Part shown: piece by piece, positions 3,145 through 36,818 of the stretch
How positions within the stretch are numbered: position 1 is the stretch's first letter
Layout of the letters: each line of letters starts with the position of its first letter
Origin: Candidatus Poribacteria bacterium
GTDB lineage: Bacteria; Poribacteria; WGA-4E; WGA-3G
Assembly (NCBI GenBank): GCA_026702755.1
Contig: JAPPBX010000005.1
Location: 1 to 38,616, forward strand
Reading direction: 5' to 3'
DNA length: 38,616 nucleotides
Program-made: the position numbers and the translations under genes
Notes under the pieces: generated by a model
Databases searched by the model: none
The model's input: the letters and a program-made list of their open reading frames with translations, nothing else
Told to the model about the DNA's origin: nothing

Positions 3145-3161
3145 AGATTCACATACTATTC

Positions 3162-3186
3162 CTGGCGAGGTTTGAAACCTCGCCAG
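3162..3186. repeat. 25-nt perfect palindrome, copy 1
   Basis: Perfect inverted repeat with 12-nt arms CTGGCGAGGTTT and AAACCTCGCCAG around one central G, lying between the convergent glycosidase and dprA genes. An identical copy lies at 33221-33245. It could act as a bidirectional terminator, but no T-run follows on either strand, so an interspersed REP-like element fits better. Confidence 0.85.
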
Positions 3187-3225
3187 TGATAAGTTACGAA
3201 ACCCAATTAAGATGTCTTGAAATCT

Positions 3226-13393: not shown

Positions 13394-13421
13394 AAAAACA
13401 CAAAAATTGTGAAAAATTATC

Positions 13422-13460
13422 CATAATTTCGTAAATTTCCGTGAAATTATGCTTTTTTTT
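13422..13460 (+). terminator. Intrinsic terminator-like hairpin with T-run
   Basis: Perfect 9-bp arms CATAATTTC (13422-13430) and GAAATTATG (13443-13451), then C and eight T (13453-13460). The stem is A/T-rich and thus weak. The position, 29 nt after the barrel gene, fits the end of that transcription unit. Confidence 0.55.
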
Positions 13461-13470
13461 GTAAATTAAC

Positions 13471-13499
13471 TTGACAAATATATCTATAGGGTGTATAAT
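13471..13499 (+). promoter_or_regulatory. Perfect-consensus sigma70 promoter for blaI-M56
   Basis: TTGACA (13471-13476), exactly 17 nt, TATAAT (13494-13499). Both hexamers match consensus fully, so this should be strong unless repressed. Confidence 0.85.
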
Positions 13500-13528
13500 A
13501 CTATTACTACGTATTTATTTTTAGTATT
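13497..13528. promoter_or_regulatory. Candidate BlaI-type operator dyad
   Basis: Inverted repeat AATACTA (13497-13503) and TAGTATT (13522-13528) overlapping the -10 box and the start of transcription. BlaI/MecI dimers bind TACT/AGTA-type dyads at their own promoters, so autorepression here is likely by analogy. Confidence 0.45.
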
Positions 13529-13610
13529 TACTGATCGTAATTTGTAAAGTGAGCGTCAACATTTTGGCTCATAGGTCAGATTCACCTTTAACTATATAAG
13601 GACCAATCAG

Positions 13611-13997
13611 ATGAAAACCAAGAGATTACACCCATTAGAACTTGAAGTGATGAAAGTGGTATGGAAATTGACGCGTGCTACGGTCAACGATGTTCTCGAT
13701 AACATTAACCGCAAGCTCGCCTATACCACTGTCGCCACGACTATGAAAAGTCTGGAAAAGAAGGGTTTTTTGTCGCATCAAGTTGACGGTAGGACGTTCG
13801 TTTACCAGCCTTTGGTCAAAGAGACAGAGATTACGCATACGATGCTCAGCGATTTGTTGGAGCGTCTTTTTGACAACTCAGCTGAGAAGTTGGTGAACAC
13901 ACTCCTCGAGGTGCGACAAACCAGCGTAGATGAACACAACCGTTTACAAGCGTTGATTAACAACTATCAACCTGAAGGAGAAAAAACCGATGAGTAA
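13611..13997 (+). CDS. BlaI/MecI/CopY-family transcriptional repressor
   Basis: This 128-residue protein matches the Penicillinase_R winged-helix family in length and motifs: LHPLELEVMKVVWKLTRATVNDVLDNINRKLAYTTVATTMKSLEKKGFLSHQVDGRTFVYQPLV. The TTVATTMKSLEKKG segment is the recognition helix region. Family members dimerise through the C-terminal helices and are inactivated when a partner M56 protease (BlaR1/MecR1) is triggered. The partner gene starts 8 nt before this stop, so the pair is translationally coupled. AAGGA-like sequence lies upstream of the ATG (ATAAGGACCAATCAG). The preceding consensus promoter and dyad suggest autorepression. Nothing points to beta-lactam resistance, as no beta-lactamase or penicillin-binding gene is present. 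Confidence 0.9.
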   Translation: MKTKRLHPLELEVMKVVWKLTRATVNDVLDNINRKLAYTTVATTMKSLEKKGFLSHQVDGRTFVYQPLVKETEITHTMLSDLLERLFDNSAEKLVNTLLEVRQTSVDEHNRLQALINNYQPEGEKTDE

Positions 13998-24022: not shown

Positions 24023-25371
24023 TGAAGCATGAACAACAAAATTTAGCAGTATCAATCTTCAGTTTCATGTTTATCCTTATATTTTCTGCACTCGCTATCT
24101 CAGCAGAACCTCAAATCGAGATCGACTTTGAGACGCAAGTCTTACCTATCCTCCAAAACCGTTGTTTCAGTTGCCATAGCGCACCAAAGACAGATCCCAG
24201 TGGTGCCATCACGAAATCGAAAGGCGGTGTTCAACTGGACAACGTGAAGGGCATTGAGGAGAGCCTGTATGGAGAAGTAATTATCGCTGGTGAACCCGAA
24301 GACTCGCTGCTCTACCAGCGTATCACCTTACCCGAAGGGGATACCGGTATCATGCCTCCACAAGAAGAAAGCGCGCCCTTGACAAAGCAGGAAACTGATC
24401 TTATCCGAAAGTGGATTGAGCAGGGGGCAACCTATGGAGAATGGAAGGGACATCAATCGGAACCTAAGTTGTCAATGACTAACACCAATCCACACCAACC
24501 TACCGTCATGCCACCGATTACTTCTCTCGCGTTTTCACCGGATGGAAAATCTGTCGTTGCATGTTCCCAAGCGGGATTACACGTTTACGATTTTCCTACA
24601 CTCAGTCTACAGCGGACAATTGAGGTATCAGCCCATAATATACACGATCTCGCGTTTTCACCTGATGGGGATCAATTGGCAGTTGGCGGTGGAAATCCTG
24701 CAACTGATGGGATTATAGAGATTTTTTTGTGGCCAGAGGGAAAGTCGTTTCGCGTTCTTAAGGAGCATCGGGATTCAGTCACGGCTATCGCTTGGCGGGA
24801 TGCGTCGTCGCTCGCATCGGCAAGCTTGGACCGACGTATTCTCCTTTGGGACTTGTATACTGGCACTGCCATCCAGCAGATGGAAGGTCATTCAAAAGGG
24901 GTGTCATCCCTCTGTTTCCTGAGTGATAAGGATATACTCGTAAGCACGGGGATAGATCAGAGTGTCCGCGTTTGGGATTTGACATCTGGTGAGTTGATTC
25001 GCAGCATGAATAATCATACGCTGCCGGTTCATGACCTTGCCTTGCGTCCAAGTGATGCTGGACTACCTGTAATTGTTTCAGCAGGCGATGACTGTACCGT
25101 TCGATTTTGGCAGCCGACTATTGGTCGAATGGTAAAATTCGCACGACTGGAGGAAGCACCGCTTGACACGGCATGGTTGAACGACGGCTCAAAGGTTGTT
25201 GCCGTGTGTACCGATGGAACTGTTCGTTTCGTTGATCCAGATTCAGTGGAAGTTACGGGTGAGATTCACGCGCTAAACGGTTGGGCGTACTCGCTGGCAG
25301 TTCATCCAACGGATGGTAGTGTTGTTGTTGGCGGGCAAAACGCACAGATCCGACGCATTATACCCAAGTGA
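24022..25371 (+). CDS. PSCyt1 cytochrome-like domain fused to WD40 propeller
   Basis: A 449-residue exported protein with signal peptide at 1-28. The PSCyt1-type domain is at about 35-140: QVLPILQNRCFSCHS (C48, C51, H52), then GGVQLDNVKGI, PEDSLLYQRITLPEGDTGIMPPQEE, and the closing TDLIRKWIEQGATYGEW. From about 160 to the end there are WD40 repeats: ITSLAFSPDGKSVVACS, IHDLAFSPDGDQLAVGGG, LASASLDRRILLWDLYTG and LVSTGIDQSVRVWDLTSGELI. This PSCyt1-WD40 form is common in Planctomycetes and related phyla; the role is probably periplasmic electron transfer or scaffolding. The ATG overlaps the upstream stop, so it is translationally coupled. It converges on the carH-like gene with a 39-nt gap. Confidence 0.88.
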   Translation: MKHEQQNLAVSIFSFMFILIFSALAISAEPQIEIDFETQVLPILQNRCFSCHSAPKTDPSGAITKSKGGVQLDNVKGIEESLYGEVIIAGEPEDSLLYQRITLPEGDTGIMPPQEESAPLTKQETDLIRKWIEQGATYGEWKGHQSEPKLSMTNTNPHQPTVMPPITSLAFSPDGKSVVACSQAGLHVYDFPTLSLQRTIEVSAHNIHDLAFSPDGDQLAVGGGNPATDGIIEIFLWPEGKSFRVLKEHRDSVTAIAWRDASSLASASLDRRILLWDLYTGTAIQQMEGHSKGVSSLCFLSDKDILVSTGIDQSVRVWDLTSGELIRSMNNHTLPVHDLALRPSDAGLPVIVSAGDDCTVRFWQPTIGRMVKFARLEEAPLDTAWLNDGSKVVAVCTDGTVRFVDPDSVEVTGEIHALNGWAYSLAVHPTDGSVVVGGQNAQIRRIIPK

Positions 25372-25410
25372 CCGAAACCGCATTGTTTTACGTCATTTCA
25401 ATGATAGTGC

Positions 25411-26373
25411 TTAATCCTTTTTCTCTGACACGTTCTGTTGCGCACGCAAGGCTTCGAGTTCGGAGCGAAAGGTTGGCATGTCATTGATTCTCACTGCCTC
25501 AATAGCGTTGATGACGGAGTCGTAGGCGATTGCCCCCGCCCCTCCAACAAACAGTGCAACATCTTCTTGAATTCCGCGTCGAATTTTCCGTAATTCATTT
25601 GCCATAAGCGGATCGTCTGTCGGGTAAACGATGCTCAATCCAATCGCCTTTGCTCCATTTTGCACTGCACACCCTACAATCTCTTCAGCTGGTAGGTTGG
25701 GACCGAGGTAGGTGACTCGCCACCCGTGAGACGCTGCAGTTGTTCCGGCAATTAATGCGCCGATTTCGTGGAGTTGACCCCGCGGTGTCGCGACCACTAA
25801 ATTTGGCATTGCGGCGGGTACATCAGATCCCTGGCAGATACTGCCCAACAGTGTCCGGACAACCGCGGCGGCAAGGTGTTCGTGTGCGATCCGTAAAGTT
25901 CCTGCTTTCCACTGTTCACCAATTTCCTGCATCAGTGGTGTGATCAACTTTTCAAGGAAAACAGGTTGGCTAAATGCGACTGATGCAGCGAAGAGTGTTG
26001 ATTCGAGTGCTTGCATCTCAAATCTTTTAACCGCTGCAATGCACGAAGCAATGTAAAAATGAAGGGATGTTTCCTGTGAGACATCCTCTTTTGCGATTGC
26101 AGCGGACTGTGCAACCGTCCCACCCGTTCCAATGAGTTCCAGAAGTTCTTCGGTGGATAGGTTTGCTATTCGTCCAATACTATGTCCTGCCTGAGTCGCG
26201 AGACGAAGCAACGTGAGTCGCGATATATCCGCGTCAGAATAGAGACGACGATTCGTTTCGGTTCGCAGCGGTGTGACGACGTTGTATCGCTTTTCCCATG
26301 CCCGAATGATAAGTTGTGTTAATCCTGTCTGAATGGCAACGGTTTTAATACCGTGTTTGTGTTGATCCGTCAT
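25411..26373 (-). CDS. carH: MerR-family B12-binding photoreceptor repressor, CarH-like
   Basis: CarH-type repressors bind adenosylcobalamin; in the dark they hold tetramers on promoters of carotenoid genes and light breaks the complex. This 320-residue protein has a MerR helix-turn-helix (about 8-75: KTVAIQTGLTQLIIRAWEKRY, TETNRRLYSDADISRLTLL). The helical bundle carries the light-sensing signature W155-x9-E165-H166 (QWKAGTLRIAHEHL). The Rossmann-type B12 domain has the candidate lower axial ligand H202 in QLHEIG, then YLGPNLPAEE and GLSIVYPTDDP. Spacing of these residues is like that of Thermus CarH. AAGGAAA lies upstream of the ATG. It is divergent to the carotenoid cluster, which fits the role. 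Whether it binds AdoB12 or has become light-independent cannot be told here. Confidence 0.88.
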   Translation of the reverse strand: MTDQHKHGIKTVAIQTGLTQLIIRAWEKRYNVVTPLRTETNRRLYSDADISRLTLLRLATQAGHSIGRIANLSTEELLELIGTGGTVAQSAAIAKEDVSQETSLHFYIASCIAAVKRFEMQALESTLFAASVAFSQPVFLEKLITPLMQEIGEQWKAGTLRIAHEHLAAAVVRTLLGSICQGSDVPAAMPNLVVATPRGQLHEIGALIAGTTAASHGWRVTYLGPNLPAEEIVGCAVQNGAKAIGLSIVYPTDDPLMANELRKIRRGIQEDVALFVGGAGAIAYDSVINAIEAVRINDMPTFRSELEALRAQQNVSEKKD

Positions 26374-26417
26374 CAGCCGTTTCCTTTTTTATTTTTCTTT
26401 TTGTTATCTTACGATTT

Positions 26418-26447
26418 AGTATAACATTAGTATATGTTATTTGTCAA
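26418..26447 (-). promoter_or_regulatory. Promoter of the carH-like gene
   Basis: On the minus strand TTGACA (26442-26447), 18 nt spacer, TATACT (26418-26423). The -35 lies in ATTATTGACAAAT, a motif also at the idi promoter, suggesting shared control. Confidence 0.65.
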
Positions 26448-26466
26448 TAATTTTGTCTAAATTTTA

Positions 26467-26495
26467 AAATTAAGACGGAGGAAAAATCTTAATTT
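26467..26495. promoter_or_regulatory. Perfect 9-bp dyad in the carH-idi gap
   Basis: AAATTAAGA (26467-26475) and TCTTAATTT (26487-26495) with an 11-nt centre. A second dyad, TATACAA (26563-26569) and TTGTATA (26589-26595), lies just ahead of the idi -35. Either could be an operator; the region is A/T-rich, so chance dyads are possible. Confidence 0.4.
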
Positions 26496-26601
26496 CCTTT
26501 CGATCTGGTTATCTGTGGCGGTATTCGTTGTGTGATCTTGTCCTATTTCACTCCATAATTTCTATACAAAATTCGATTTATCATAAAATTGTATAAATTT
26601 T

Positions 26602-26633
26602 TTATTGACAAATTATAGACAATATGTAATAAT
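26602..26633 (+). promoter_or_regulatory. idi/crt operon promoter with 11-nt direct repeats
   Basis: TTGACA (26605-26610), 17 nt spacer, AATAAT (26628-26633). Overlapping it are two adjacent 11-nt repeats, TTATTGACAAA (26602-26612) and TTATAGACAAT (26613-26623). Tandem 11-nt direct repeats over the promoter are how Thermus CarH tetramers bind, so this is a likely CarH operator. Confidence 0.65.
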
Positions 26634-26702
26634 AATGTACATAGAGATTTACACCCTAATTTAACTTGAGAAATCATACCGATACGAAGGAAATAAATAT
26701 CA

Positions 26703-27242
26703 ATGATACAAGAGCATGTCATACTCGTCGATCATACGGGTAGAGAAATCGGCACGCAAGAAAAACTGCAAGCACATCGTGAGGGTAAATTACACAGTGC
26801 ATTTTCGATTTTTGTCTTTAACGCCGTGGGTGAATTATTGCTTCAGAGACGGGCATGGACGAAATACCATTCCGGTGGATTGTGGACGAATACGTGCTGT
26901 AGTCATCCACGTCCCGGCGAAAGTTATTATCGCGCAGCGCGACGACGGCTCAATGAGGAAATGGGTTTCGATTGTGAATTGACTGGGCTTTTTAGTTTTA
27001 TTTATCACGTGCAACTCGATAATAGCCTATTTGAACACGAACTGGACCACGTCTTTGTTGGGCACTATAATGGTCAACCTATTCCGAATCCGAACGAAGT
27101 TGATGATTGGAAATGGATGGACATAAACGCGTTGAGGCAGGATGTTCAGGAAAACCCTAAAGATTACACTTACTGGTTCAAACTGACGCTGGATCGCGTT
27201 GTTACACAAACCCGAACAATCAATTTTTGCCGTGAAACTTAA
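26703..27242 (+). CDS. idi: Isopentenyl-diphosphate delta-isomerase, type I
   Basis: Idi interconverts isopentenyl and dimethylallyl diphosphate and so feeds carotenoid synthesis. The 179-residue length is normal for the Nudix-type enzyme. Visible residues are the catalytic cysteine in WTNTCCSHPRPGE (C66), the Nudix-like AARRRLNEEMGFD (81-90) and the second catalytic acid in HELDHVFVG (E113), with WKWMDINAL after it. AAGGA is well placed before the ATG. This is the first gene of the plus-strand cluster, divergent from carH. The gene overlaps the next by 11 nt. Confidence 0.95.
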   Translation: MIQEHVILVDHTGREIGTQEKLQAHREGKLHSAFSIFVFNAVGELLLQRRAWTKYHSGGLWTNTCCSHPRPGESYYRAARRRLNEEMGFDCELTGLFSFIYHVQLDNSLFEHELDHVFVGHYNGQPIPNPNEVDDWKWMDINALRQDVQENPKDYTYWFKLTLDRVVTQTRTINFCRET

Positions 27243-27828
27243 TAGATTTATTTATCTAAACTTGATGTTGGTATTGATTTTTTTGTTGTGTTCCATTGGT
27301 ATCGCTGTGGATGAATCGGTGGAAGCGTTGCTGAAGCGTGCGCGCGAAAAATTTCATGCCTCCGTGGAAGATAAAAACCAAATTGAACCGGCGATCAAAC
27401 TCTTTGAACGGATCGCGCGAGAAGAACCGAGGTACGCCGGACGTGCAGAGGTCTACATGGGTGCTCTTGTTGCTCTCAAAGGGAAGCACGCGTTTTTTCC
27501 TCACACCAAACTCAAGTGGACAAAGCGCGGTTTAGCAATTATAGATAGTGGATTAAAGAAAACTCCAGAAGACATTGAGGCACTGTTCATTCACGGAGCG
27601 GTCTGTTACCATCTTCCGTTCTTCTTCCAACGTGGTGACGATGCGCAACGAGATTTCAAGGAAATTATCAAACAAATGCCTTCACAAATGCATACATATC
27701 ACTCCGAATTAGTTGAAAATATCATTACATTCTTGCTTGAGAAGGCGAAACTGACAGATGATGAGAAAGTATATCTACGGACACTCAAAGACAAATTGGC
27801 ATCTGAACGTTCAGACGCGCAGCAATGA
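27232..27828 (+). CDS. Exported TPR-like protein of unknown role within the crt operon
   Basis: A 198-residue protein starting at GTG 27232, with a signal peptide or anchor at 1-24 (KLNRFIYLNLMLVLIFLLCSIGIA). I chose this start because a frame from TTG 27199 would put extra residues before the hydrophobic segment. The rest is helical with TPR-like spacing: AIKLFERIAREEPRYAGRAEVYMGALVALKG, GLAIIDSGLKKTPEDIEALFIHGAVCYHLP and AQRDFKEIIKQMPS. I do not recognise an enzyme motif. Starting 11 nt inside idi and overlapping crtY by 4 nt, it is clearly translated with the carotenoid genes. A scaffold or membrane-assembly role is possible but unproven. Confidence 0.75.
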   Translation: MKLNRFIYLNLMLVLIFLLCSIGIAVDESVEALLKRAREKFHASVEDKNQIEPAIKLFERIAREEPRYAGRAEVYMGALVALKGKHAFFPHTKLKWTKRGLAIIDSGLKKTPEDIEALFIHGAVCYHLPFFFQRGDDAQRDFKEIIKQMPSQMHTYHSELVENIITFLLEKAKLTDDEKVYLRTLKDKLASERSDAQQ

Positions 27829-28508
27829 AATTTGAATATCTTCTGTTTAATCTTGTTATTATTGTCGGACCTGTTGTATCCCGATTCAGTCGTCAGATTA
27901 GACAAATTTCGCACTGGCGATTGAAACTACTCGTGAGTGGAATTGTCATGATTCCCTATATTATATGGGATGCCATTGTCACTGGTTCGCATTGGTGGTT
28001 CAACGAGGCGTATACACTCGATTTTCGATTGTTAGGTCTGCCAATTGGGGAGTGGCTCTTTTTTGTGACTGTTCCATTTGGGTGTTTGTTGGTATGGGAG
28101 ACGCTACCGCATACCGATAGTTGGTTAGTCGAGTTGAAATCCCTTCGGTACATCAGAGTAGTTTTATATGCTGGACTACCGATCGGTGTATGGATTTTCA
28201 GTACGGGTAGGCAGTACACAGGATTGGTTCTATTGTGCTTGGGACTCGTTGGGCTGGTGGATATGTTATTGAACGTTAATCTGCTTCTACAACCGAAGAC
28301 CTATCTCTATCTCGGAATTGTCTCCGTTTTGATTTTGGTGTTCAACGGTTACCTCACGGCGCGACCGGTTGTTCTGTATGGTGAGGCGTATCAGAGTGGC
28401 TACCGAATTCTGACAATCCCTATTGAAGATTTCGGGTATGGCTTCACGTTAATACTGTTTAACACAATGCTTTATGAAAAATTGAAGGCAGCTTGGTATG
28501 AAAAATAA
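27825..28508 (+). CDS. crtYcd: Fused CrtYc-CrtYd-type lycopene cyclase
   Basis: A polytopic membrane protein of 227 residues with two homologous halves, as in the fused form of heterodimeric bacterial and archaeal lycopene cyclases. Half 1 has IIWDAIVTGSHWWFNEAYTL and LPIGEWLFFVTVPFGCLL. Half 2 has VLYGEAYQSGYRILTIPIEDFGYGFTLILFNTMLYE. The cyclase acid motif PxE(E/D) is intact in half 2 (PIED) but reads PIGE in half 1. The enzyme closes a psi end to a beta ring; with CruF present in the cluster, only one end is probably cyclised. The ATG overlaps the upstream stop (ATGA), and the end overlaps crtD by 11 nt. Confidence 0.88.
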   Translation: MKFEYLLFNLVIIVGPVVSRFSRQIRQISHWRLKLLVSGIVMIPYIIWDAIVTGSHWWFNEAYTLDFRLLGLPIGEWLFFVTVPFGCLLVWETLPHTDSWLVELKSLRYIRVVLYAGLPIGVWIFSTGRQYTGLVLLCLGLVGLVDMLLNVNLLLQPKTYLYLGIVSVLILVFNGYLTARPVVLYGEAYQSGYRILTIPIEDFGYGFTLILFNTMLYEKLKAAWYEK

Positions 28509-30000
28509 ACGAGTGGCAGTCATCGGTGGTGGGCTTGGAGCATTAAGCGGTGCGATTCGTCTCGCGCGGTTAGGATTCTCTGTCCAATTATTTGAGAAAA
28601 ATCCGCAAATTGGAGGGAAGGTCAACGAAGTAATTTTGGAAGGCTACCGGTTTGATACAGGGGCATCTCTACTAACGATGCCTTTTGTGATTGATGAACT
28701 GTTCGATTTTGCTGGTTTTAAGCGGTCGGATTATCTCGATTTTATGTCAATTGACCCGATATGCCGATACTTTTTTTCAGATGGTTCAGTGATGGATGCA
28801 AGTGCCGACAAGGCAAAGATGAAAGCTGCGATTGAGGAACTATCGTCTGATGACGTGGAAGCATACACACAGTTCTTGAAGTATGCGGAACGTATTCACG
28901 ACCTAACAGCCGAAATCTTTATGTCTACACCGATCCATGAATTCGGGAAACTCATGCGCCTTCGGTATTTTCGGACACTGTTTAGGCTTCATCAAATTGA
29001 TCCGTTTCGGACCGTGCATCAAAGTGTGTCCCGTTTTTTCTCGGATCCGCGCCTCGTTCAACTGTTTGACCGCTACGCGACCTACAACGGTTCAGATCCG
29101 TTTCAGGCACCCGCAACCCTTAACATAATTCCGTATATTGAGTATGGGTTGGGAGGGTATTACATCAAAGGTGGCATCTATCGTTTGATTGACGCATTGG
29201 AAGCAGTGGCGTGTAAGTTGGGTGTTCAGATTCGGACATCGACAAGGGTTGAGAAAATCTGCCACGATGGTAAGCGGGTCAGTGGCGTACAAGTTAATGG
29301 TGAAAAACTTGAAACGGATTATGTATTGTGTGGTGCAGATGCAGTCGTAGCATACGATGAATTGATTGATGGGTACCAACATCGATCCGAGAAACTAAAT
29401 CGGTTGGAACCGTCGTTGTCGGGAATGGTATTTCTTTGGGGGATTAAGGGGAAGTATTCAGCATTGGGACATCATAACATTATCTTCTCCGGTGACTACG
29501 GTGCCGAATTTAAGCAGATTTTTAAACATCGGCAAGTACCAGATGATCCGACTATCTATATCGCTATAACCAGTAAAACAGATAGCGAACACGCACCGAC
29601 TGATGGCGAGAATTGGTTCGTGTTGTTGAACATGCCGTATTTGACACCCGGACAGATGTGGGAAAAAGAGAAGGTTCGGATGCGAACGGTTGTTTTGGAT
29701 AGATTAAAGCAGCTCGGTTTCGACATCGCAGATCAGATTGAGGTGGAGCAGATTTACACGCCGGAGGATTTCTCTGAACTTTATGCCAGCAATCAAGGGA
29801 GTATCTACGGCGTATCGTCGAATAGTAGAACCACTGCGTTCAAACGTCTACCAAATCGAAGTCGTGTCCTGAAAGGGCTTTACTTCGCAGGGGGTTCGGT
29901 GCACCCAGGCGGCGGGATTCCATTGGTGATATTGTCTGGAAAAATGGCGGCGACGTTGATTGCGGAAGATTGTGCCTCGAAAATTTATAAGCAAGGGTAA
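28498..30000 (+). CDS. crtD: CrtI-family carotenoid desaturase, probably CrtD (3',4'-desaturase)
   Basis: This 500-residue FAD enzyme has an N-terminal dinucleotide-binding motif (VAVIGGGLGALSGAIRLARLGFSVQLFEKN). The segment GGKVNEVILEGYRFDTGASLLTMPFVIDELF resembles the CrtD group (hydroxycarotenoid 3,4-desaturases of Bacteroidetes and phototrophs) more than CrtI. The C-terminal GLYFAGGSVHPGGGIPLVILSGKMAA is the usual FAD-binding end. In the likely pathway it introduces the 3',4' double bond after CruF has hydrated the psi end. The start lies 11 nt inside crtYcd, and the stop is 5 nt before the next desaturase. The choice between CrtD and CrtI for the two paralogues is by motif memory and could be reversed. 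Confidence 0.8.
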   Translation: MKNKRVAVIGGGLGALSGAIRLARLGFSVQLFEKNPQIGGKVNEVILEGYRFDTGASLLTMPFVIDELFDFAGFKRSDYLDFMSIDPICRYFFSDGSVMDASADKAKMKAAIEELSSDDVEAYTQFLKYAERIHDLTAEIFMSTPIHEFGKLMRLRYFRTLFRLHQIDPFRTVHQSVSRFFSDPRLVQLFDRYATYNGSDPFQAPATLNIIPYIEYGLGGYYIKGGIYRLIDALEAVACKLGVQIRTSTRVEKICHDGKRVSGVQVNGEKLETDYVLCGADAVVAYDELIDGYQHRSEKLNRLEPSLSGMVFLWGIKGKYSALGHHNIIFSGDYGAEFKQIFKHRQVPDDPTIYIAITSKTDSEHAPTDGENWFVLLNMPYLTPGQMWEKEKVRMRTVVLDRLKQLGFDIADQIEVEQIYTPEDFSELYASNQGSIYGVSSNSRTTAFKRLPNRSRVLKGLYFAGGSVHPGGGIPLVILSGKMAATLIAEDCASKIYKQG

Positions 30001-30005
30001 GAGAT

Positions 30006-31604
30006 ATGAAACGGAAAATTGTCATCATCGGTTCAGGTTTTGGAGGACTCGCAGCAGCGATTCGACTGCAAGCGAAAGGCATGCAAGTTACACTTCTGGA
30101 GAAAAATGCGAAAGTTGGGGGGCATGCCTATCAACTCGTTAAGGACGGCTACACTTTCGATATGGGCCCCTCAATTATCACCGCGCCAGACTTGATTCAG
30201 CGTGTATTTGAATGTGCTGGTATGCGGATGGAAGATTACCTTGATTTGGTAAAACTCGACCCGTTTTATCGTATCTACTTCCATGACGGTTCGTCGCTTG
30301 ATTATACAGACAATGACGAACAGATGAAACAACAGATGGCGCGATTCAACATGAGGGACGCTGATAACTACGATCGCTTCATGGCACATACGCGTCGACT
30401 TTACGATGCTGTCATCACGGACGGATTAGGTGCGACCGCCTTTGATTTACCGACGATGCTTGGCTTTCTGCCGCGTGCTTTACGGCTTCAGGCATTGATG
30501 CCTGCTTACGACTTCGTTAAGAAGTATTTCGACGACCCGCGCCACCGTTTCACTTTTTCATTTCATCCACTGTTTATCGGCGGCAATCCGTTTCGGGCAC
30601 CAGCGGTTTACCTCATGATTCCGTATCTTGAAAAAGTTGGGGGTGTCTGGTTCTGCAAAGGTGGCATGTATCGCCTCGTCCGTGCGTTAGAAGATGTGTT
30701 CAAACAACTCGGTGGGGTCGTTGAAACCGATACAGAAGTTGAACGGATCGTTGTTGAAAAGCGGCGTGCAAAAGGTGTTATTGCGAGAGTTAACCAAGAA
30801 CGCAGAACCAAGAACGCGATTTCAGATATTCCTGATAAGGCACGCGTTCTTGGTTCTTCCGACATAAATAGTAAAGGAAACCCGCGTTCTTGGTTAAAAT
30901 TTTACGAAGCAGATGGCGTTATTTCCAACGCTGATCTGGCACACACCTACGGCGAACTTATTAATCCCGAACATCGTAGGAAATGGTCCGACAAGAAGCT
31001 CAGAAAAACCCAATATTCAATGAGTGCCTTTCTGCTCTATCTCGGCGTTCGGAAAAAATATCCGAAACTCAAGCATCATACGCTCATTCTTTGTGAGAGA
31101 TATAAAGGGTTAATAGATGATATTTTTGACAATAAGGCACTTCCAGACGATTTTTCAATGTATCTCCATATTCCGTCACAAACCGATCCATCAATGGCAC
31201 CGGAAGGTTGTGAGAGTATGTACGTCCTGATTCCGGTGCCAAATTTGGAAAGCGGAGTCAACTGGAAGAAGACGAAGGCGGTGTATACAGATAGAGTGCT
31301 GACGTTTTTGGAAAACGACTTTGGACTGACAGACTTAAAACGTTCAATTGAAGTGCTTGAAACATTTACACCTTCAGATTTCAGACGTGAACGAAACAAC
31401 CATCTCGGTAGTGCATGGGGTGTTGAGCCGAAACTGACACAGACAGCGTATTTTCGACCCCATAACCGAAGTGAAGATATACAAAAACTATACTTTGTCG
31501 GCGCAAGCACGCATCCGGGGGCAGGCGTGCCGGGGGTTCTGCTGACAGCAGAAACGACGGTAAAGCTTGTCACCCAGGATTTGAATGCGGAGGATTTATC
31601 ATGA
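30006..31604 (+). CDS. crtI: Phytoene desaturase CrtI
   Basis: This 532-residue FAD enzyme desaturates phytoene to lycopene. Motifs are KIVIIGSGFGGLAAAIRLQAKG at the N-terminus, GGHAYQLVKDGYTFDMGPSIITAPDLI (typical CrtI), GGNPFRAPAVYLMIPYLE, and the C-terminal LYFVGASTHPGAGVPGVLLTAE. It is longer than the usual roughly 490-500 residues. The excess is a 36-codon insert at about residues 262-298, encoded by a palindromic element at 30790-30897 that keeps the frame. The insert lies in a surface-type region after the EVERIVVEKRRAKGVI strand pair, before ADGVISNADL, so function is probably kept. The 3' end overlaps crtB by 4 nt (ATGA). Confidence 0.92.
   Translation: MKRKIVIIGSGFGGLAAAIRLQAKGMQVTLLEKNAKVGGHAYQLVKDGYTFDMGPSIITAPDLIQRVFECAGMRMEDYLDLVKLDPFYRIYFHDGSSLDYTDNDEQMKQQMARFNMRDADNYDRFMAHTRRLYDAVITDGLGATAFDLPTMLGFLPRALRLQALMPAYDFVKKYFDDPRHRFTFSFHPLFIGGNPFRAPAVYLMIPYLEKVGGVWFCKGGMYRLVRALEDVFKQLGGVVETDTEVERIVVEKRRAKGVIARVNQERRTKNAISDIPDKARVLGSSDINSKGNPRSWLKFYEADGVISNADLAHTYGELINPEHRRKWSDKKLRKTQYSMSAFLLYLGVRKKYPKLKHHTLILCERYKGLIDDIFDNKALPDDFSMYLHIPSQTDPSMAPEGCESMYVLIPVPNLESGVNWKKTKAVYTDRVLTFLENDFGLTDLKRSIEVLETFTPSDFRRERNNHLGSAWGVEPKLTQTAYFRPHNRSEDIQKLYFVGASTHPGAGVPGVLLTAETTVKLVTQDLNAEDLS
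30790..30897. repeat. 108-nt palindromic element inserted in frame in crtI
   Basis: Outer perfect 14-nt arms TTAACCAAGAACGC (30790-30803) and GCGTTCTTGGTTAA (30884-30897). An inner perfect 15-nt pair is AGAACCAAGAACGCG (30804-30818) and CGCGTTCTTGGTTCT (30843-30857). Length is exactly 36 codons with no stop in the crtI frame. It is similar in kind to the protein-coding palindromic elements of Rickettsia. Confidence 0.9.
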
Positions 31605-32530
31605 AGAAATTATGGAAAGCAGAAGAGAATCGAGATGCCTTTGAGTATGCTCGCAGGGTAACCGCCCACTATTCAAAAAGTTTTTATTTTTCAGCAAGGA
31701 TGCTACCGAGAGAACAGCGTTGGGCGACATTCGCACTCTACGGTTTCTGTCGACACTGCGACAATCTGATTGATACGCCGCGCCAACGGACTGAAGCAGA
31801 AATCCTCAGAGAGGTTCAACTCTTGACAGAAGAATTACAGATTGCTTACAATACAGGTGAATCTCAACATCCAATTATTCGTGCGTTCATTCTCGTTGCC
31901 AAGGCATACAATATTCCTATTGTCTATCCGCTTGATCTGCTCAAAGGAGTTGCCATGGATGTCCGGCAGACGCGGTATAAAACATTCGATGAACTCTCAC
32001 TTTTCTGTTATCGGGTTGCTGCCGTTGTAGGATTGATGATGACGCATGTACTCGGCTATAAGGACGAAGGTGCGTTTGGTTACGCAAAGCAACTCGGTAT
32101 CGCTATGCAACTGACCAATATTCTGCGGGATGTCAAAGAGGATAAAGAGATGGGACGACTCTATATACCACAAACAGATTTGGCAGCGTTCGGTGTGACA
32201 GAAGAAGACATCTTTGACGAAAAAATGACACCGCAATTGCGGGCACTTATGAAGTTCCAAGTTGAACGCGCCGATCAATACTATACTGAAGCGATGCCGG
32301 GTATTCCCTTACTCAAAACGGAATCGCAATATGCGATCTATTCAGCCGCTAAAATTTACCGTGGTATCTTAAGAAAAATCGAAGAGTGCGATTACAACCC
32401 GTTTTTAAGTCGGGTTTTTGTACCGTCAATTCAGAAAATAAAGATTTTACTACACGAGGGACTCCGGACGAAGGTTCTGTCGGCACAAGAGAAACTATTC
32501 CCAGTGCACTCCGGAATAATACATAAATGA
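31601..32530 (+). CDS. crtB: Phytoene synthase CrtB
   Basis: CrtB condenses two geranylgeranyl diphosphates to phytoene. The 309-residue protein has normal length and both Asp-rich metal motifs of squalene/phytoene synthases: FCRHCDNLIDTPR (near residues 49-61) and QLTNILRDVKEDKEMGRLYIP. It also has YSKSFYFSARMLPREQRWATFALYGF upstream and YSAAKIYRGILRKIEECDYNPFLSRVFVP at the C-terminus. It overlaps crtI by 4 nt upstream and the acyltransferase gene by 4 nt downstream (both ATGA), so it is a coupled member of the operon. Confidence 0.95.
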   Translation: MKKLWKAEENRDAFEYARRVTAHYSKSFYFSARMLPREQRWATFALYGFCRHCDNLIDTPRQRTEAEILREVQLLTEELQIAYNTGESQHPIIRAFILVAKAYNIPIVYPLDLLKGVAMDVRQTRYKTFDELSLFCYRVAAVVGLMMTHVLGYKDEGAFGYAKQLGIAMQLTNILRDVKEDKEMGRLYIPQTDLAAFGVTEEDIFDEKMTPQLRALMKFQVERADQYYTEAMPGIPLLKTESQYAIYSAAKIYRGILRKIEECDYNPFLSRVFVPSIQKIKILLHEGLRTKVLSAQEKLFPVHSGIIHK

Positions 32531-33183
32531 TTCGTGCACAGCATCGCCTTTGGGCGGACCTCATTTTCCAACCGTATCTCACGTGGTCGTTCAAGCGGCA
32601 TTTTCACGCAATCCAACTTTTGGGGCCACTACCGGAAATTCCGTCTCATTTACCGTTGCTGTTGCTGCCTAACCACAGTACGTGGTGGGATGGATTCTTT
32701 GTTTATCTGCTCAACAAACGGATTTTTCGGCGAACTGCCTATCTGATGATGCTGGAGGAGCAGCTATCTAAGTACAGGTTCTTTGCGAAAATAGGAGCCT
32801 ATTCAATCGAACCGAAGCATCGGCAAGGTATCGTTGAATCACTGGAATACACCGTTGAATTGCTGAATCAAGGGACACCGCTTGTCTCGATTTTTCCGCA
32901 AGGACAACTATTGCCGTGGCATACACGCCCGCTCGATTATAAGCGCGGTGTTGAATGGATTTTACGGGAATATGGAAAACCCGTTACTGTGCTTCCGTTA
33001 GCAATTCGGACCGAGTTTCTCGGTGAAAAATGTCCAAATGTACTCTTTCTGTTCGGGGAAGCCCATTCGTTTGACATAGATACGTTTCATGGGATGGACT
33101 GGCTCGAAAAAACTGAGATTAATTTGCTGGATGAGTTGGCGTTGCGAATACTTCGTCAAGAAGAGGGTCAAAATTTGCTTTAG
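32527..33183 (+). CDS. PlsC-type acyltransferase, probably carotenoid glycoside acyltransferase
   Basis: A 218-residue member of the lysophosphatidate-type acyltransferase superfamily with the catalytic H-x4-D motif LPNHSTWWDGFF (H50, D55). FPQGQLLPW stands where the usual FPEGTRS motif would be, followed by YKRGVEWILREYGKPVTVLPLAIR. In green sulfur bacteria and Salinibacter-like gene sets, such enzymes add a fatty acyl group to the sugar of a carotenoid glycoside. Position between crtB and a glycosyltransferase supports this role. It overlaps crtB by 4 nt. The changed second motif (Gln for Glu) sets it apart from housekeeping PlsC. The substrate is inferred. Confidence 0.82.
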   Translation: MIRAQHRLWADLIFQPYLTWSFKRHFHAIQLLGPLPEIPSHLPLLLLPNHSTWWDGFFVYLLNKRIFRRTAYLMMLEEQLSKYRFFAKIGAYSIEPKHRQGIVESLEYTVELLNQGTPLVSIFPQGQLLPWHTRPLDYKRGVEWILREYGKPVTVLPLAIRTEFLGEKCPNVLFLFGEAHSFDIDTFHGMDWLEKTEINLLDELALRILRQEEGQNLL

Positions 33184-33200
33184 TGGTTATCGGTTAAACA

Positions 33201-33288
33201 GGACTTACGCAGCACCTTCGCTGGCGAGGTTTGAAACCTCGCCAGATGCACGTAATATGTAGGGATTCATAGAAAATTGCGTAAGTCC
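33201..33288. mobile_element. MITE-like element with 11-nt terminal inverted repeats
   Basis: Perfect terminal arms GGACTTACGCA (33201-33211) and TGCGTAAGTCC (33278-33288), 88 nt in all, with no coding capacity. It holds copy 2 of the 25-nt palindrome (33221-33245) that is also at 3162-3186. No certain target duplication seen. It splits the carotenoid cluster between the acyltransferase and glycosyltransferase genes. Confidence 0.75.
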
Positions 33289-33310
33289 GATTAAAGGTAG
33301 GGCAATAATA

Positions 33311-34432
33311 GTGTTTGTATTGATGTTTATCGTTATCGGGTTGCTGGCGGTTGTTTTGACGGTTACGCTGTTCAACGCTGTGACGGCACCGATGCTGAAA
33401 AAAGCAGGTGAGTGTCGAGACCGTCCACGCGTCTCGGTACTGATTCCTGCCCGGAACGAGGAAGCCAATATCGGTGCCTGTATTGAGGGATTCCTATCTC
33501 AAAACTACGATAATTTTGAGATTCGCGTTCTTGACGATCAATCAACGGATCGCACGGGCGCGATTATTGAAAAGTTCGGTGAGCAGTATCCTGAAATTCA
33601 GGTGCTCCGCGGTAAACCGTTGCCCGCTGGATGGTTAGGAAAAAATTGGGCATGCCATCAACTCAGCCAGCATGCGGATGGAGAGATACTCATTTTCACC
33701 GATGCGGATAACCGTCCTGCACCGGAGGCGATAGCGAATACTGTCGCCTACATGCAGAAATTTGAGATTGGGTTATTGTCGGCGTTTCCAGAGAAAGTGA
33801 CAGTCACTTTAGCAGAAAAACTCGTGGTACCGGTGGTTGACATGTTCGTTTATGCCGGGCTTCCGTTATGGCTTACGTATTTCAGCCGTTCGCCTTCACT
33901 TGCTGCCGCGAGCGGTTTGTGGATTGCCTTTACCCGCGAGGCATATCAACAGATTGACGGACATCAAGCCGTATCAAATCAGATTGTTGAGGACGTTGAG
34001 TTAAGCCGATTGGCAAAAAAGAAAGGTATCAGAATCTTGACCTCGGCTGGCACTGGTGTGGTGTGTTGCAGAATGTATCATTCGTTTGGTGAGGTATGGA
34101 GTGGATTTTCCAAAAACCTTTTTGGACTGGTCCGCTACAAGACACTCCCATTTTTTCTTCTAACGCTTATTCTGTTTACAATGTGCGTCCTCCCCTATAT
34201 CACTGTCTGGTTTGAGCCATTTATGCAACTGTCTCTTATTGCTATCACTATGAACGTTGTTATACGGGTTGTACTGGCACTGAAATACAAACACCCGTTC
34301 TTTACGAGTGTGGTTTTGCATCCGTTTGGTGTTTTGGCAACTTTGTTGATTGGTATCAATTCATTCTATCAAGTCAAACGCGGTCGCTTGGCGTGGAAAG
34401 GGCGACAGATCGACATGCAGGTAAATGGATAA
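33311..34432 (+). CDS. Family 2 glycosyltransferase, probably carotenoid glycosyltransferase
   Basis: A 373-residue membrane GT2 enzyme. An N-terminal helix (2-27) precedes the catalytic domain: RVSVLIPARNEEANIGACIEGFLSQNY, VLDDQSTDRTG (nucleotide binding), IFTDADNRP (DxD type, D131-D133), and a later VEDVELSRLAKKKGI (ED acceptor motif). Three C-terminal membrane segments follow (about 275-355). This layout is like CruC/CrtQ-type carotenoid glycosyltransferases. The start codon is GTG at 33311 with AAGGTAGGG upstream; ATG 33323 is an alternative. It overlaps cruF by 8 nt. The likely acceptor is the 1'-hydroxyl made by CruF, by pathway inference. Confidence 0.83.
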   Translation: MFVLMFIVIGLLAVVLTVTLFNAVTAPMLKKAGECRDRPRVSVLIPARNEEANIGACIEGFLSQNYDNFEIRVLDDQSTDRTGAIIEKFGEQYPEIQVLRGKPLPAGWLGKNWACHQLSQHADGEILIFTDADNRPAPEAIANTVAYMQKFEIGLLSAFPEKVTVTLAEKLVVPVVDMFVYAGLPLWLTYFSRSPSLAAASGLWIAFTREAYQQIDGHQAVSNQIVEDVELSRLAKKKGIRILTSAGTGVVCCRMYHSFGEVWSGFSKNLFGLVRYKTLPFFLLTLILFTMCVLPYITVWFEPFMQLSLIAITMNVVIRVVLALKYKHPFFTSVVLHPFGVLATLLIGINSFYQVKRGRLAWKGRQIDMQVNG

Positions 34433-35111
34433 ACTAAAGATAGGTGTGCTTTATCTACTTTTAGGGGCAGGTGGATTGTGGCATGTACTCGGTGTTTTCC
34501 AAGGCGTTATGCGAGTCCTCGCTGCGCCCATGATGTTTGGTTTAGCGGTTTGGCTGTTTTGGGAATGCTGGCGGATATGTCCGCAGGAAGAAAAGCGGAA
34601 ATTTGTTCTCTGGGGTGTATGCGTTGTTGTGGGTAGCTTCGGCATTGAGTGGCTCGGTGTTCGGACAGGTCAAATTTTCGGCGCGTATACGTACGGACAG
34701 ACACTGCGTCCGTCGATTGATGGTGTCCCGATCTGTATTGGGTGCGCGTGGTTTGTAATGCTTGTCGCTTCGGTCGCTGTTTTTCAGAGAATCGCACCGA
34801 AATCCATAGTTACAAGTCCGGTCAAATTGGCGTTGTGTGTGGCGTTGTTGATGGTCTGTTTCGACCTGTTTATGGAACCCGCCGCAGGAATATTAGATTA
34901 TTGGGTATGGGTGGATAACCGTATTCCACTACAGAACTATCTGGCGTGGTTCGGATTGAGTTTCGCCTTTGCGATGATCGGTATAAAATTGGGCTTGTTT
35001 TCCCAACCGCCCCTTTCCAGTAACGGTTGGGGACCCCTGCCTCGAATTGCGTTTCACTTCTATTTCGCACAACTCGTTTATTTTGGACTCGTGGACTTAA
35101 AGTGCCTATGA
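34425..35111 (+). CDS. cruF: CruF-type carotenoid 1',2'-hydratase (DUF422)
   Basis: CruF adds water to the psi end of a carotenoid, giving a 1'-hydroxyl, the acceptor for glycosylation; it is known from deinoxanthin, myxol and chlorobactene-type pathways. This 228-residue polytopic membrane protein has the family segments WLGVRTGQIFGAYTYG, GVPICIGCAWFVM, CFDLFMEPAAGILDYWVWVDNRIPLQNYLAWFG, and seven or so hydrophobic stretches. Length is slightly shorter than many relatives. The start overlaps the glycosyltransferase gene by 8 nt and the stop overlaps crtW by 4 nt, so it is tightly coupled with both. Confidence 0.9.
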   Translation: MDKLKIGVLYLLLGAGGLWHVLGVFQGVMRVLAAPMMFGLAVWLFWECWRICPQEEKRKFVLWGVCVVVGSFGIEWLGVRTGQIFGAYTYGQTLRPSIDGVPICIGCAWFVMLVASVAVFQRIAPKSIVTSPVKLALCVALLMVCFDLFMEPAAGILDYWVWVDNRIPLQNYLAWFGLSFAFAMIGIKLGLFSQPPLSSNGWGPLPRIAFHFYFAQLVYFGLVDLKCL

Positions 35112-35845
35112 AATTGACAAACAAGGGTTTATTCATCGCGTTAGCGATTATCGGTCTGTGGGGATTGAGTCTCTCAAGTTTCCTACGCATCGGGTTTGAA
35201 AACCCCTCCTACGCATCTGTTCAAATTAGCATTCCGCTGATACCATTGGGCATACTTTGGCAGACATTTCTGTATACCGGTCTGTTTATCACAGCGCACG
35301 ATGCGATGCATGGATCGGTGTGTCGGACATATCCACGCGTCAACAATGTAATTGGTACAATCGCTGTTAGGTTATACGCGCTATTTTCATATCGCAAATT
35401 GTTAGAGAAGCATTGGGCACACCACCGAACACCTGCGAGCGGGACAGATCCGGATTTTCATGATGGAGTACACAGTGGTTTCTTGATGTGGTATCTTCGT
35501 TTTATGAAGGAATATCTCGGCTGGCAGCAGATCGTCGGTATGGCAGTTGTCTTTCAGATTATGGAATACGTTTTGGGGATCCCGACTCTCAATCTGATAC
35601 TGTTCTGGGTTTCTCCAGCGTTGCTTAGTACGTTACAACTGTTTTATTTTGGGACATATCTGCCGCACCGCACTCCAGAGGGTGGATATGACGATCCGCA
35701 CCGTGCGCAAAGCAATGCGTATTCGACCTTCTGGTCATTTATCACCTGTTATCACTTCGGCTATCATTGGGAACACCACGAGTATCCGGACGTTCCGTGG
35801 TGGTATTTGCCAAAGATGCGTAAGGTTCGTGAACACCCCCAATGA
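35108..35845 (+). CDS. crtW: CrtW-type beta-carotene ketolase
   Basis: CrtW is a di-iron membrane oxygenase that places a 4-keto group on beta rings. This 245-residue copy has the histidine boxes HDAMH (H64, H68), KHWAHHRTPASGTDPDFH (H102, H105, H106) and HWEHHEYPDVPWWYLP (H220, H223, H224), the last being very typical of CrtW. The start is ATG 35108, overlapping the cruF stop (ATGA). A longer frame from TTG 35027 would lie inside cruF and is unlikely. Near the N-terminus (about residues 25-37) a small repeat, 35181-35217, is translated as LRIGFENPSYA. The gene converges on the minus-strand cyclodeaminase-family gene with a 7-nt gap. Confidence 0.9.
   Translation: MKLTNKGLFIALAIIGLWGLSLSSFLRIGFENPSYASVQISIPLIPLGILWQTFLYTGLFITAHDAMHGSVCRTYPRVNNVIGTIAVRLYALFSYRKLLEKHWAHHRTPASGTDPDFHDGVHSGFLMWYLRFMKEYLGWQQIVGMAVVFQIMEYVLGIPTLNLILFWVSPALLSTLQLFYFGTYLPHRTPEGGYDDPHRAQSNAYSTFWSFITCYHFGYHWEHHEYPDVPWWYLPKMRKVREHPQ
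35181..35217 (+). repeat. Direct repeat flanking a small hairpin inside crtW
   Basis: TCCTACGCATC occurs at 35181-35191 and again at 35207-35217. Between them GGGTTT-GA-AAACCC forms a 6-bp hairpin whose core resembles GGTTTGAAACC of the intergenic palindrome. Possibly a decayed insertion. Confidence 0.55.
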
Positions 35846-35852
35846 ATTCTCG

Positions 35853-36818
35853 TCATCCGATTTCAATGAGGGTCCCCAATCCTTTAGTTTCCGCTTCTGT
35901 CAGTACTGCTGCGCCTACGACTGCGTCTTGCACCGCTACGCCCACGGATTTGAAAAACGTGATTTCGCTGTCCGAGTCGCGCCCGGGTTTGTCGCCGTTG
36001 AGAATTTCGCCGATTTCGGCATCAATTTCAGCGTTGGGAATAATTAGATCTCCCGCTTCTTCTACGCAGGCTTCACGCGAGTCAACAACAATTCGATCTG
36101 ACCGCCTTATTGTTGTCGTATCGACTTCCCGTTTTTCTGGCACGAATGTGCCAACGGCTGTGATGTGTGTGCCCGGTTGTAGGTCGTTCCCGTCGAAAAG
36201 AGGCGTTGCCGATGTCGTTGCACATAGTACAATGTCGGCCTCCTCAACGACTTCTTGTGGTGTGGATACAATATTGACTTTGGGTGGGTCTGTCCACTCT
36301 GAAATTTCAGTAGCGAGTTGTTGCGCCGAGGCTTCTGTACGACTGATGAGGTTCACGCGTGCGATATTTCTGACCGCCATTACTGCCTGTAATTGTGCCC
36401 TCGCCTGTACACCTGCTCCGAAGAGTCCGACCTTCCTTGCGTCCTTAGGGGCAAGTAAATCTGCTGCCACGCCACCACCGGCACCTGTTCGGATGGCAGT
36501 GAGACTGGCACCGTCCATAAAGGCTTTCGGGGTTCCTGTCGTGGGGTCGAGGACTAAAACCGTGGCGGTGATGCGAGGTAGATCGAGGTTGGGATTATCG
36601 TCGTAAACGGAGACGACTTTGATGCCGAATTCGCCGTGCTCAGGTAGATAGGCGGGCATGATGAGTGTAACGCCTTTGTCGGTGGAGAGATGTTGGCGGG
36701 GTGGTGCAGTCACCTTGCCTGCTGAGAGTTGGCTATAAGCGTGCCGCATTGCATCGATCGCTTTGCGCATTGGTAACGCTGCGCGGACATCAGAAGCCGA
36801 GAGAATTCTAATGGGCAT
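35853..36818 (-). CDS. Ornithine cyclodeaminase/mu-crystallin family reductase
   Basis: This 321-residue NAD(P)-dependent enzyme belongs to the OCD/mu-crystallin family, which includes ornithine cyclodeaminase, alanine dehydrogenase and delta1-pyrroline-2-carboxylate reductase. Visible are PPRQHLSTDKGVTLIMPAYLPEHGEFGIKVVSVYDDN (active-site lysine K67), MDGASLTAIRTGAGGGVAADLLA (R110) and the Rossmann motif VGLFGAGVQARAQLQAV (from 130). The aromatic or acidic residues that fix ornithine are not evident to me, so ornithine is not assumed. It starts 4 nt after the stop of the enolase-superfamily gene upstream, so both are made together. That pairing points to pyrroline-2-carboxylate reduction, an inference. 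Confidence 0.82.
   Translation of the reverse strand: MPIRILSASDVRAALPMRKAIDAMRHAYSQLSAGKVTAPPRQHLSTDKGVTLIMPAYLPEHGEFGIKVVSVYDDNPNLDLPRITATVLVLDPTTGTPKAFMDGASLTAIRTGAGGGVAADLLAPKDARKVGLFGAGVQARAQLQAVMAVRNIARVNLISRTEASAQQLATEISEWTDPPKVNIVSTPQEVVEEADIVLCATTSATPLFDGNDLQPGTHITAVGTFVPEKREVDTTTIRRSDRIVVDSREACVEEAGDLIIPNAEIDAEIGEILNGDKPGRDSDSEITFFKSVGVAVQDAVVGAAVLTEAETKGLGTLIEIG

Follow-up and report, generated by a model that had tools for sequence, protein, structure and literature searches.

A probable CarH-type operator between divergent carH and idi-crt genes in Poribacteria

The carH-idi locus

The DNA analysed here, referred to in the following as the window, is a stretch of 38,616 nucleotides from a Candidatus Poribacteria bacterium. 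It contains a gene for a CarH-like regulator, which points away from the first gene of a probable carotenoid operon, and the gap between the two is the subject of this study. The main elements of the locus are the following:

25411–26373, minus strand: carH, 320 aa, with a MerR-type DNA-binding domain and a B12-binding domain
26374–26702: carH/idi gap, 329 nt, between the divergent carH and idi
26703–27242, plus strand: idi, isopentenyl-diphosphate isomerase type 1, first operon gene (NCBIfam PRK03759, TIGR02150)
27199–35845, plus strand: rest of the probable crt operon (Pfam; overlapping or adjoining ORFs)

The assignment of idi is based on scores above both NCBIfam cut-offs (173.4 bits against 127 for PRK03759 and 125.9 against 105.8 for TIGR02150). 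The genes that follow begin with an unnamed 209-aa ORF, a lycopene cyclase, two crtI-like desaturases and a phytoene synthase, and further include an acyltransferase, a glycosyltransferase, a PF04240 carotenoid biosynthesis gene and a fatty-acid-desaturase-type gene; judging by their arrangement, idi and the crt genes are probably read as one transcript. A scan of positions 25200–27300 against Rfam for a riboswitch returned no family at the gathering level and two matches below the cut-off, which we take as chance.

Some features of the surroundings deserve mention in their own right. The 209-aa ORF (27199–27828), located between idi and the lycopene cyclase gene, has no Pfam or NCBIfam match and is kept in the operon in two further families, at 40% and 55% identity. 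Beyond the operon, two long ORFs overlap on opposite strands, 35842–36606 (plus) and 35853–36818 (minus); since the minus-strand ORF is a clear ornithine cyclodeaminase/mu-crystallin (1e-73), the plus-strand ORF is probably no gene. Finally, in many relatives (e.g. L009 and L016), the idi leader is extended and may form a hairpin, ATCGGTTG ... CAACCGAT, directly before the ribosome-binding site, a feature missing from the window and its nearest relatives.

Paired promoters and their half-sites

For comparison, we used a genus set of 36 genomes, including that of the window, in which CarH was counted at an identity of at least 75%. The 21 CarH loci of the genus provide 16 complete carH-idi gaps, the window included. 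In the other loci, the start of idi is cut and the operator lost (L007), the operon is deleted (L014), or the gap is affected by contig ends or rearrangement (L017, L019, L022). Together with L051 and L055, which belong to the genomes of L022 and L017, the 16 gaps yield 18 idi sites; together with L017 and L019, they yield 18 carH sites.

A promoter scan finds one promoter facing each gene, both matching 11 of the 12 consensus positions of the −35 and −10 hexamers, at 26605 to 26633 on the plus strand for idi and at 26447 to 26418 on the minus strand for carH. Their −35 elements are 158 nt apart. An earlier note on this DNA had proposed that both −35 hexamers lie inside a motif shared by the two promoters, and the scan confirms this. 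The motif, TTATTGACAAA, occurs once per strand, at 26440–26450 (minus) and 26602–26612 (plus), and nowhere else in the 38.6-kb window, where 0.04 copies are expected by chance and none of 100 dinucleotide shuffles reached two. The second unit that the note had described on the plus-strand side, TTATAGACAAT, is indeed found at 26613–26623, exactly 11 nt after the first. The individual elements, with their conservation in the genus, are:

26418–26423, minus strand: carH promoter −10, TATACT (mean column identity to the window 0.86, 16 gaps)
26442–26447, minus strand: carH promoter −35, TTGACA, a TnnACA half-site (TnnACA columns 16/16)
26454–26459, minus strand: TAGACA half-site 12 nt upstream of the carH −35 (at −12 in 7/18 carH sites)
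26467–26495: dyad, perfect 9-nt arms in the window, probably incidental
26563–26568, plus strand: half-site 1, TATACA, upstream arm of an inverted pair (18/18 idi promoters; columns 15–16 of 16)
26590–26595, minus strand: half-site 2, TATACA, TGTATA on the plus strand (TGTATA or TGTCTA in 16/18)
26605–26610, plus strand: half-site 3, TTGACA, the idi promoter −35 (invariant, 16/16)
26616–26621, plus strand: half-site 4, TAGACA, in the promoter spacer, 11 nt past half-site 3 (TAGACA in 17/18, TATACA in L021)
26628–26633, plus strand: idi promoter −10, AATAAT, with TG just before it (spacer 17; mean identity of 26624–26635, 0.92)

In the window, the 329-nt gap contains seven copies of T[AT][GT]ACA, whereas shuffles average 1.36 and none of 2000 reached seven, for a motif that was picked after viewing the region. 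Column identity to the window ranges from 0.89 to 0.97 over half-sites 1 to 4 versus 0.57 in mid-gap. If only the T and ACA columns of the half-sites outside the promoter hexamers (1, 2 and 4) are considered, 10 of 12 are invariant across the 16 gaps versus 59 of all 329 columns; the corresponding hypergeometric value of 8.6e-7 is indicative only, as the genomes are related and it carries no correction for phylogeny. Since the relatives all come from one genus, these conservation figures are not independent of each other.

The exact 11-mer TTATTGACAAA is found on the idi side in 4 of 18 sites and on the carH side in 12 of 18, and on both sides of one genome in only 2 of 16, for which reason we reject it as the recognition unit. 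Instead, the alignments point to TnnACA at 11-nt spacing: TTGACA-N5-TA[GT]ACA is kept at exactly this spacing in all 18 idi promoters, which answers the question of conservation in relatives on which the earlier note had staked its proposal. Its comparison with the tandem 11-nt repeats of Thermus CarH likewise holds, as the TnnACA units match the published CarH operator repeat, nnnnTnnACAn (PMC9304148). Thus, each of the 18 idi promoters carries two perfect units of a tandem 11-nt nnnnTnnACAn repeat over its −35. According to the same source, CarH operators normally have three to four units, and those with one or two perfect repeats are still bound (PMC9304148).

Upstream of this tandem, half-sites 1 and 2 form an inverted pair that coincides with the dyad at 26563–26595. 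The earlier note had listed two dyads in the gap as unexplained, of which this one now has an explanation: by its sequence and conservation, it appears to be part of the operator. It is intact in 15 of 16 gaps. Of the 16, 14 keep 8 or more pairs between the arms, where 8 or 9 can be read, L012 keeps 7 of 9, and L006 pairs at all 6 readable positions. The repeat finder gave this dyad no entry of its own, but its best register pairs 12 of 22 positions. Half-site 2 lies 14 or 15 nt from the idi −35; exceptions to its sequence are AGTATA in L006 and TATACA, in reversed orientation, in L051. The other dyad, at 26467–26495, was rejected as a conserved site: two of the 16 gaps lack the segment, and only 5 of the remaining 14 pair in full.

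Half-sites 1 and 2 might also be the target of another regulator, for instance an activator or a nucleoid protein, with CarH bound only to the tandem over the −35. The distance between the two half-sites varies from 16 to 28 nt (mostly 26–28, but 22 in L006 and 16 in L010) as opposed to the fixed 11 nt of the tandem, and the literature describes CarH operators as direct repeats in tandem (PMC9304148), both of which would fit such a regulator. Yet the pair shares with the tandem not only the TnnACA motif but also its interchangeable variants, with TGTCTA in place of TGTATA in L005 and L012 and TATACA in place of TAGACA in L021. Moreover, the operator of Myxococcus CarA was once called inverted repeats and later re-read as direct repeats (PMC9304148). 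We thus consider a second regulator rather unlikely, and a composite site for CarH the better reading of half-sites 1 to 4.

At the carH promoter, the −35 reads TnnACA in all 18 sites, including L003, where TTGACA is changed to TAGACA, a poorer −35 that retains the half-site. The TAGACA half-site 12 nt upstream is found in the window, its four closest relatives, L009 and L016, and at −17 or −29 in four others. A second TnnACA at 11 nt is present in 9 of 18 carH sites, with a near match, TnnACG, in three and TATGCG in one, and is absent from the window and its four nearest relatives among the 18 sites compared. The proposal of the earlier note that the switch also limits carH itself is therefore better supported in the relatives than here: judging from these sites, carH probably regulates itself in the genus, though with less certainty in the window.

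The CarH-type protein and its possible response to light

The product of carH matches the Pfam families MerR_1 (PF13411, 4.5e-13), B12-binding (1e-13) and B12-binding_2 (6.3e-9) and, among PDB sequences, Thermus CarH (5c8d, 4.2e-26); nine named relatives among genome contigs all belong to Candidatus Poribacteria. Its AlphaFold model (pLDDT 80.8) aligns best to the structures of photocobilin, CtMerR and Thermus CarH, with Z 18.1 and rmsd 3.4 over 192 aligned residues for 3whp and Z 18.0 and rmsd 10.1 over 269 for the light-exposed full-length 5c8f, and the predicted fold is that of CarH. The best-scoring NCBIfam model is NF052513 (TransRegCarH), yet the score of 107.3 bits lies below its cut-off of 400; we class the protein as CarH-type for its motifs and domain architecture, and not as an NF052513 equivalog.

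The motifs in question are shared by the whole genus. The recognition helix reads RAWEKRY in the window and RAWE[KRN]RY in all 21 proteins; the published motif, RxWERRY, has Arg where the window has Lys (PMC9304148). In the AdoCbl domain, W155, E165 and H166 (Wx9EH) and the lower-ligand His, H202, are likewise present in 21 of 21. The window protein has all four light-response motifs, GEQW, EH, GQLH and GPNLP, at positions kept in the genus alignment; they correspond to the signature GxxW, EH, GxxH and GxxxP described in PMC11796333, where the choice of the GxxxP that is meant is our own. As for the cofactor, a PduO-type adenosyltransferase is encoded in 33 of the 36 genus genomes, so AdoCbl can be made, and an adenosyltransferase of the CobA/CobO/BtuR type in none of the 36.

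One position sets these proteins apart from Thermus CarH, whose His132 ligates cobalt after light (PMC10442372), in a bis-His arrangement reported for many but not all CarH proteins. At the equivalent position, following the Trp, 12 of the 21 genus proteins have Lys, the other 9 Arg and none His, so that the bis-His pair is missing. However, CtMerR has Arg at this position and is light-responsive, with bis-His ligation not seen in its light-exposed structure, and other light-responsive members of the family have Gln or Tyr (PMC11796333). By analogy with CtMerR, it is therefore plausible that the window protein responds to light by a route other than that of Thermus CarH.

Field data bear on the same point. 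Poribacteria are described as sponge-associated (PMC11656744), and in the sponge Aplysina aerophoba, according to a metatranscriptome published in 2026, the lycopene cyclase and isopentenyl-diphosphate isomerase transcripts of a Poribacteriota member peak by day, with phytoene desaturase, lycopene cyclase and isomerase of the MAG bin44 up-regulated in light (PMC12879404). These functions match genes of the present operon. The words CarH, photoreceptor and MerR do not occur in the main text of that study (PMC12879404), its bin44 could not be matched to any genome in our set, and a literature search found, among the matches listed, no publication that links CarH with Poribacteria.

Given the missing light-state His, CarH might still bind the gap but mainly sense AdoCbl, and hence B12 status, with only a small effect of light. 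The Lys or Arg in all 21 proteins would be in keeping with this, as would the finding that H132A Thermus CarH is mostly tetrameric after light, made in one study that also mentions an earlier report of disassembly (PMC10442372). The light-responsive family members with Arg, Gln or Tyr at the same position argue against it (PMC11796333), and so do the Poribacteriota idi and crt transcripts that rise by day, even though B12 supply could vary daily too (PMC12879404). We therefore regard a sensor mainly of AdoCbl as improbable and a switch that answers to both light and B12 as the preferred reading, suggested by the protein motifs together with the published field data.

Distribution, interpretation and known CarH systems

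Across the genus, CarH is found in 21 of 36 genomes, and idi in 20, plus a truncated copy (G034) and a 27-residue fragment (G003). The idi-side operator is present in 18 of the 21 genomes with CarH versus 0 of the 15 without it; 17 of these were counted by pattern (at most 3 mismatches), and that of G028, where a short stretch ahead of the −10 is deleted, was recognised by eye and with the model described below. The three exceptions are G013, G034 and G029. In G013 (L125, 7536–9536), the whole idi-crt operon is gone together with the operator, by which loss carH came to adjoin, at 48 nt, an ornithine-cyclodeaminase-like gene that normally lies beyond the operon. In G034, the start of idi was lost together with the operator, and in G029, idi lies at a contig end with only 69 nt of upstream sequence, too little to judge the operator. 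Conversely, G022 (84% complete; L123, 7823–10773) carries the idi-crt genes but lacks both CarH and an operator in front of its idi. Likewise, idi occurs without CarH in another family of the order, in four genomes (G043, G045, G046, G047), and is followed by the crt genes in G043. CarH is thus not universal for this operon.

The scan for the repeat elsewhere, which the earlier note had suggested, found the tandem core TWKACA-N5-TWKACAAT at two places in all 5.84 Mb of the genome, the idi operator being one. We also built a 34-nt sequence model of both promoters, R1, from an alignment of 23 of the 36 sites, which left out duplicates, the carH sites of the window clade, the shifted idi site of L010 and the carH site of L013. 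With the best 150 of about 2400–4100 candidates scored per genome, R1 matched only carH and idi sites in the 36 genus genomes at E <1e-3, apart from a tRNA promoter in G020. These matches do not include the carH side of the window, in keeping with its degenerate second unit. The switch thus looks local, with no other convincing site in the genus among the best 150 candidates per genome.

That the repeats are nothing but strong sigma-70 promoters with AT-rich spacers, sharing TTGACA as their −35 and the rest by chance, is very improbable: both sites do match the consensus at 11 of 12 positions and R1 also picks up the tRNA promoter, but a spacer has no need of TAGACA, which nevertheless stands as half-site 4 (or its variant) 11 nt on in every one of the 18 sites, half-sites 1 and 2 are equally conserved upstream of the −35, L003 gives up the consensus −35 while keeping TnnACA, and the operator is found in none of the 15 genomes that lack CarH.

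A different arrangement is seen in another family of the same order. In G037 and G040, a CarH of about 40% identity is divergent from an RpoD-like sigma-70 gene (L118, gap 12877–13241, gene 13242–14201; L120 is the locus of the second genome), and the frame is broken in G040. The gap contains several TAGACA/TGTCTA motifs, and the sigma promoter has GTCTATTTTATATTGACA, followed by TAGACA at 13 nt (TTGACA-N7-TAGACA). The CarH of G037 (L024) has Wx9QH in place of Wx9EH. The crt operon of G037 lies on another contig, and the 16 kb around it contain no motif cluster. In this family, a relay from CarH through the sigma factor is possible.

For the window, we consider it highly likely that the gap combines promoters with the operator of a CarH-type repressor dependent on adenosyl-B12. 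The basis for this is the observed conservation, spacing and interchange of half-sites, the co-occurrence with CarH and the protein motifs, from which we infer binding, repression, control by light and B12, autoregulation and co-transcription as follows. In the dark, CarH with AdoCbl would bind the TnnACA half-sites, occupying the two head-to-tail units, 11 nt apart, that cover the idi −35 and spacer, with help from the upstream inverted pair, and would thereby block RNA polymerase at the idi-crt operon. It would also repress its own promoter, to a lesser or differently arranged degree. Light would then cleave the Co–C bond, upon which CarH would release the DNA and the carotenoid genes would be expressed by day.

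If true, dark repression by a B12 switch would explain the reported daytime pigment transcripts of such symbionts; the operator supplies a candidate cis-regulatory mechanism for the rise by day of idi, lycopene cyclase and phytoene desaturase transcripts in Poribacteriota (PMC12879404). It would also take CarH operators beyond myxobacteria, Thermus and Bacillus, where they were worked out, into an uncultured candidate phylum with an unusual half-site layout, and the natural clade makes the need for a light-state His ligand in CarH testable. More tentatively, and as a speculation that is less likely than not, one can imagine that a clade of sponge symbionts runs day/night carotenoid expression by a CarH with Lys or Arg instead of the bis-His switch, that this CarH reads a composite operator of an 11-nt tandem over the −35 and an upstream inverted pair, and that a sister family re-wired the same type of repressor to an adjoining sigma-70 factor. 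Diel carotenoid expression in Poribacteriota would then be direct bacterial B12 light sensing, with a release chemistry unlike that of the textbook protein.

Among the known systems, Thermus thermophilus CarH shares with the window protein the MerR plus B12-binding architecture, Wx9EH and the lower-ligand His, and its operator likewise has TnnACA in tandem 11-nt direct repeats, one of which holds the −35. By contrast, the Thermus protein has His where the window genus has Lys or Arg after the Trp, its operator has three repeats instead of two perfect tandem repeats and an inverted upstream pair, and idi is the first target gene here. Where Thermus CarH has an Arg and an Asp that we take to form a dimer salt bridge, the proteins here further have Leu/His and Asn. 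CtMerR of Chloracidobacterium thermophilum (PDB 8jbs, 8jbt) is likewise a MerR-family B12-domain photoreceptor, has Arg at the His132 position, as do 9 of the 21 proteins here, and aligns to the window model with Z 18.4 at 21% identity over the aligned residues.

Two myxobacterial operators are comparable in other respects. That of Sorangium cellulosum CarH, footprinted in the divergent crtI-carH gap, also has few perfect repeats, but there one site, with a perfect repeat and two degenerate ones, serves divergent promoters that overlap each other (PMC9304148), whereas each promoter has a separate site here, 158 nt apart by their −35 elements. The CarA/CarH operator at Pcrt of Myxococcus xanthus combines, as here, TnnACA around the −35 with an upstream inverted repeat (PMC9304148), while sequence and spacing differ. 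Judged by sequence, the window genus probably has a CarH-type system with two variant features, the Lys or Arg in place of the light ligand and the inverted pair upstream of the tandem.
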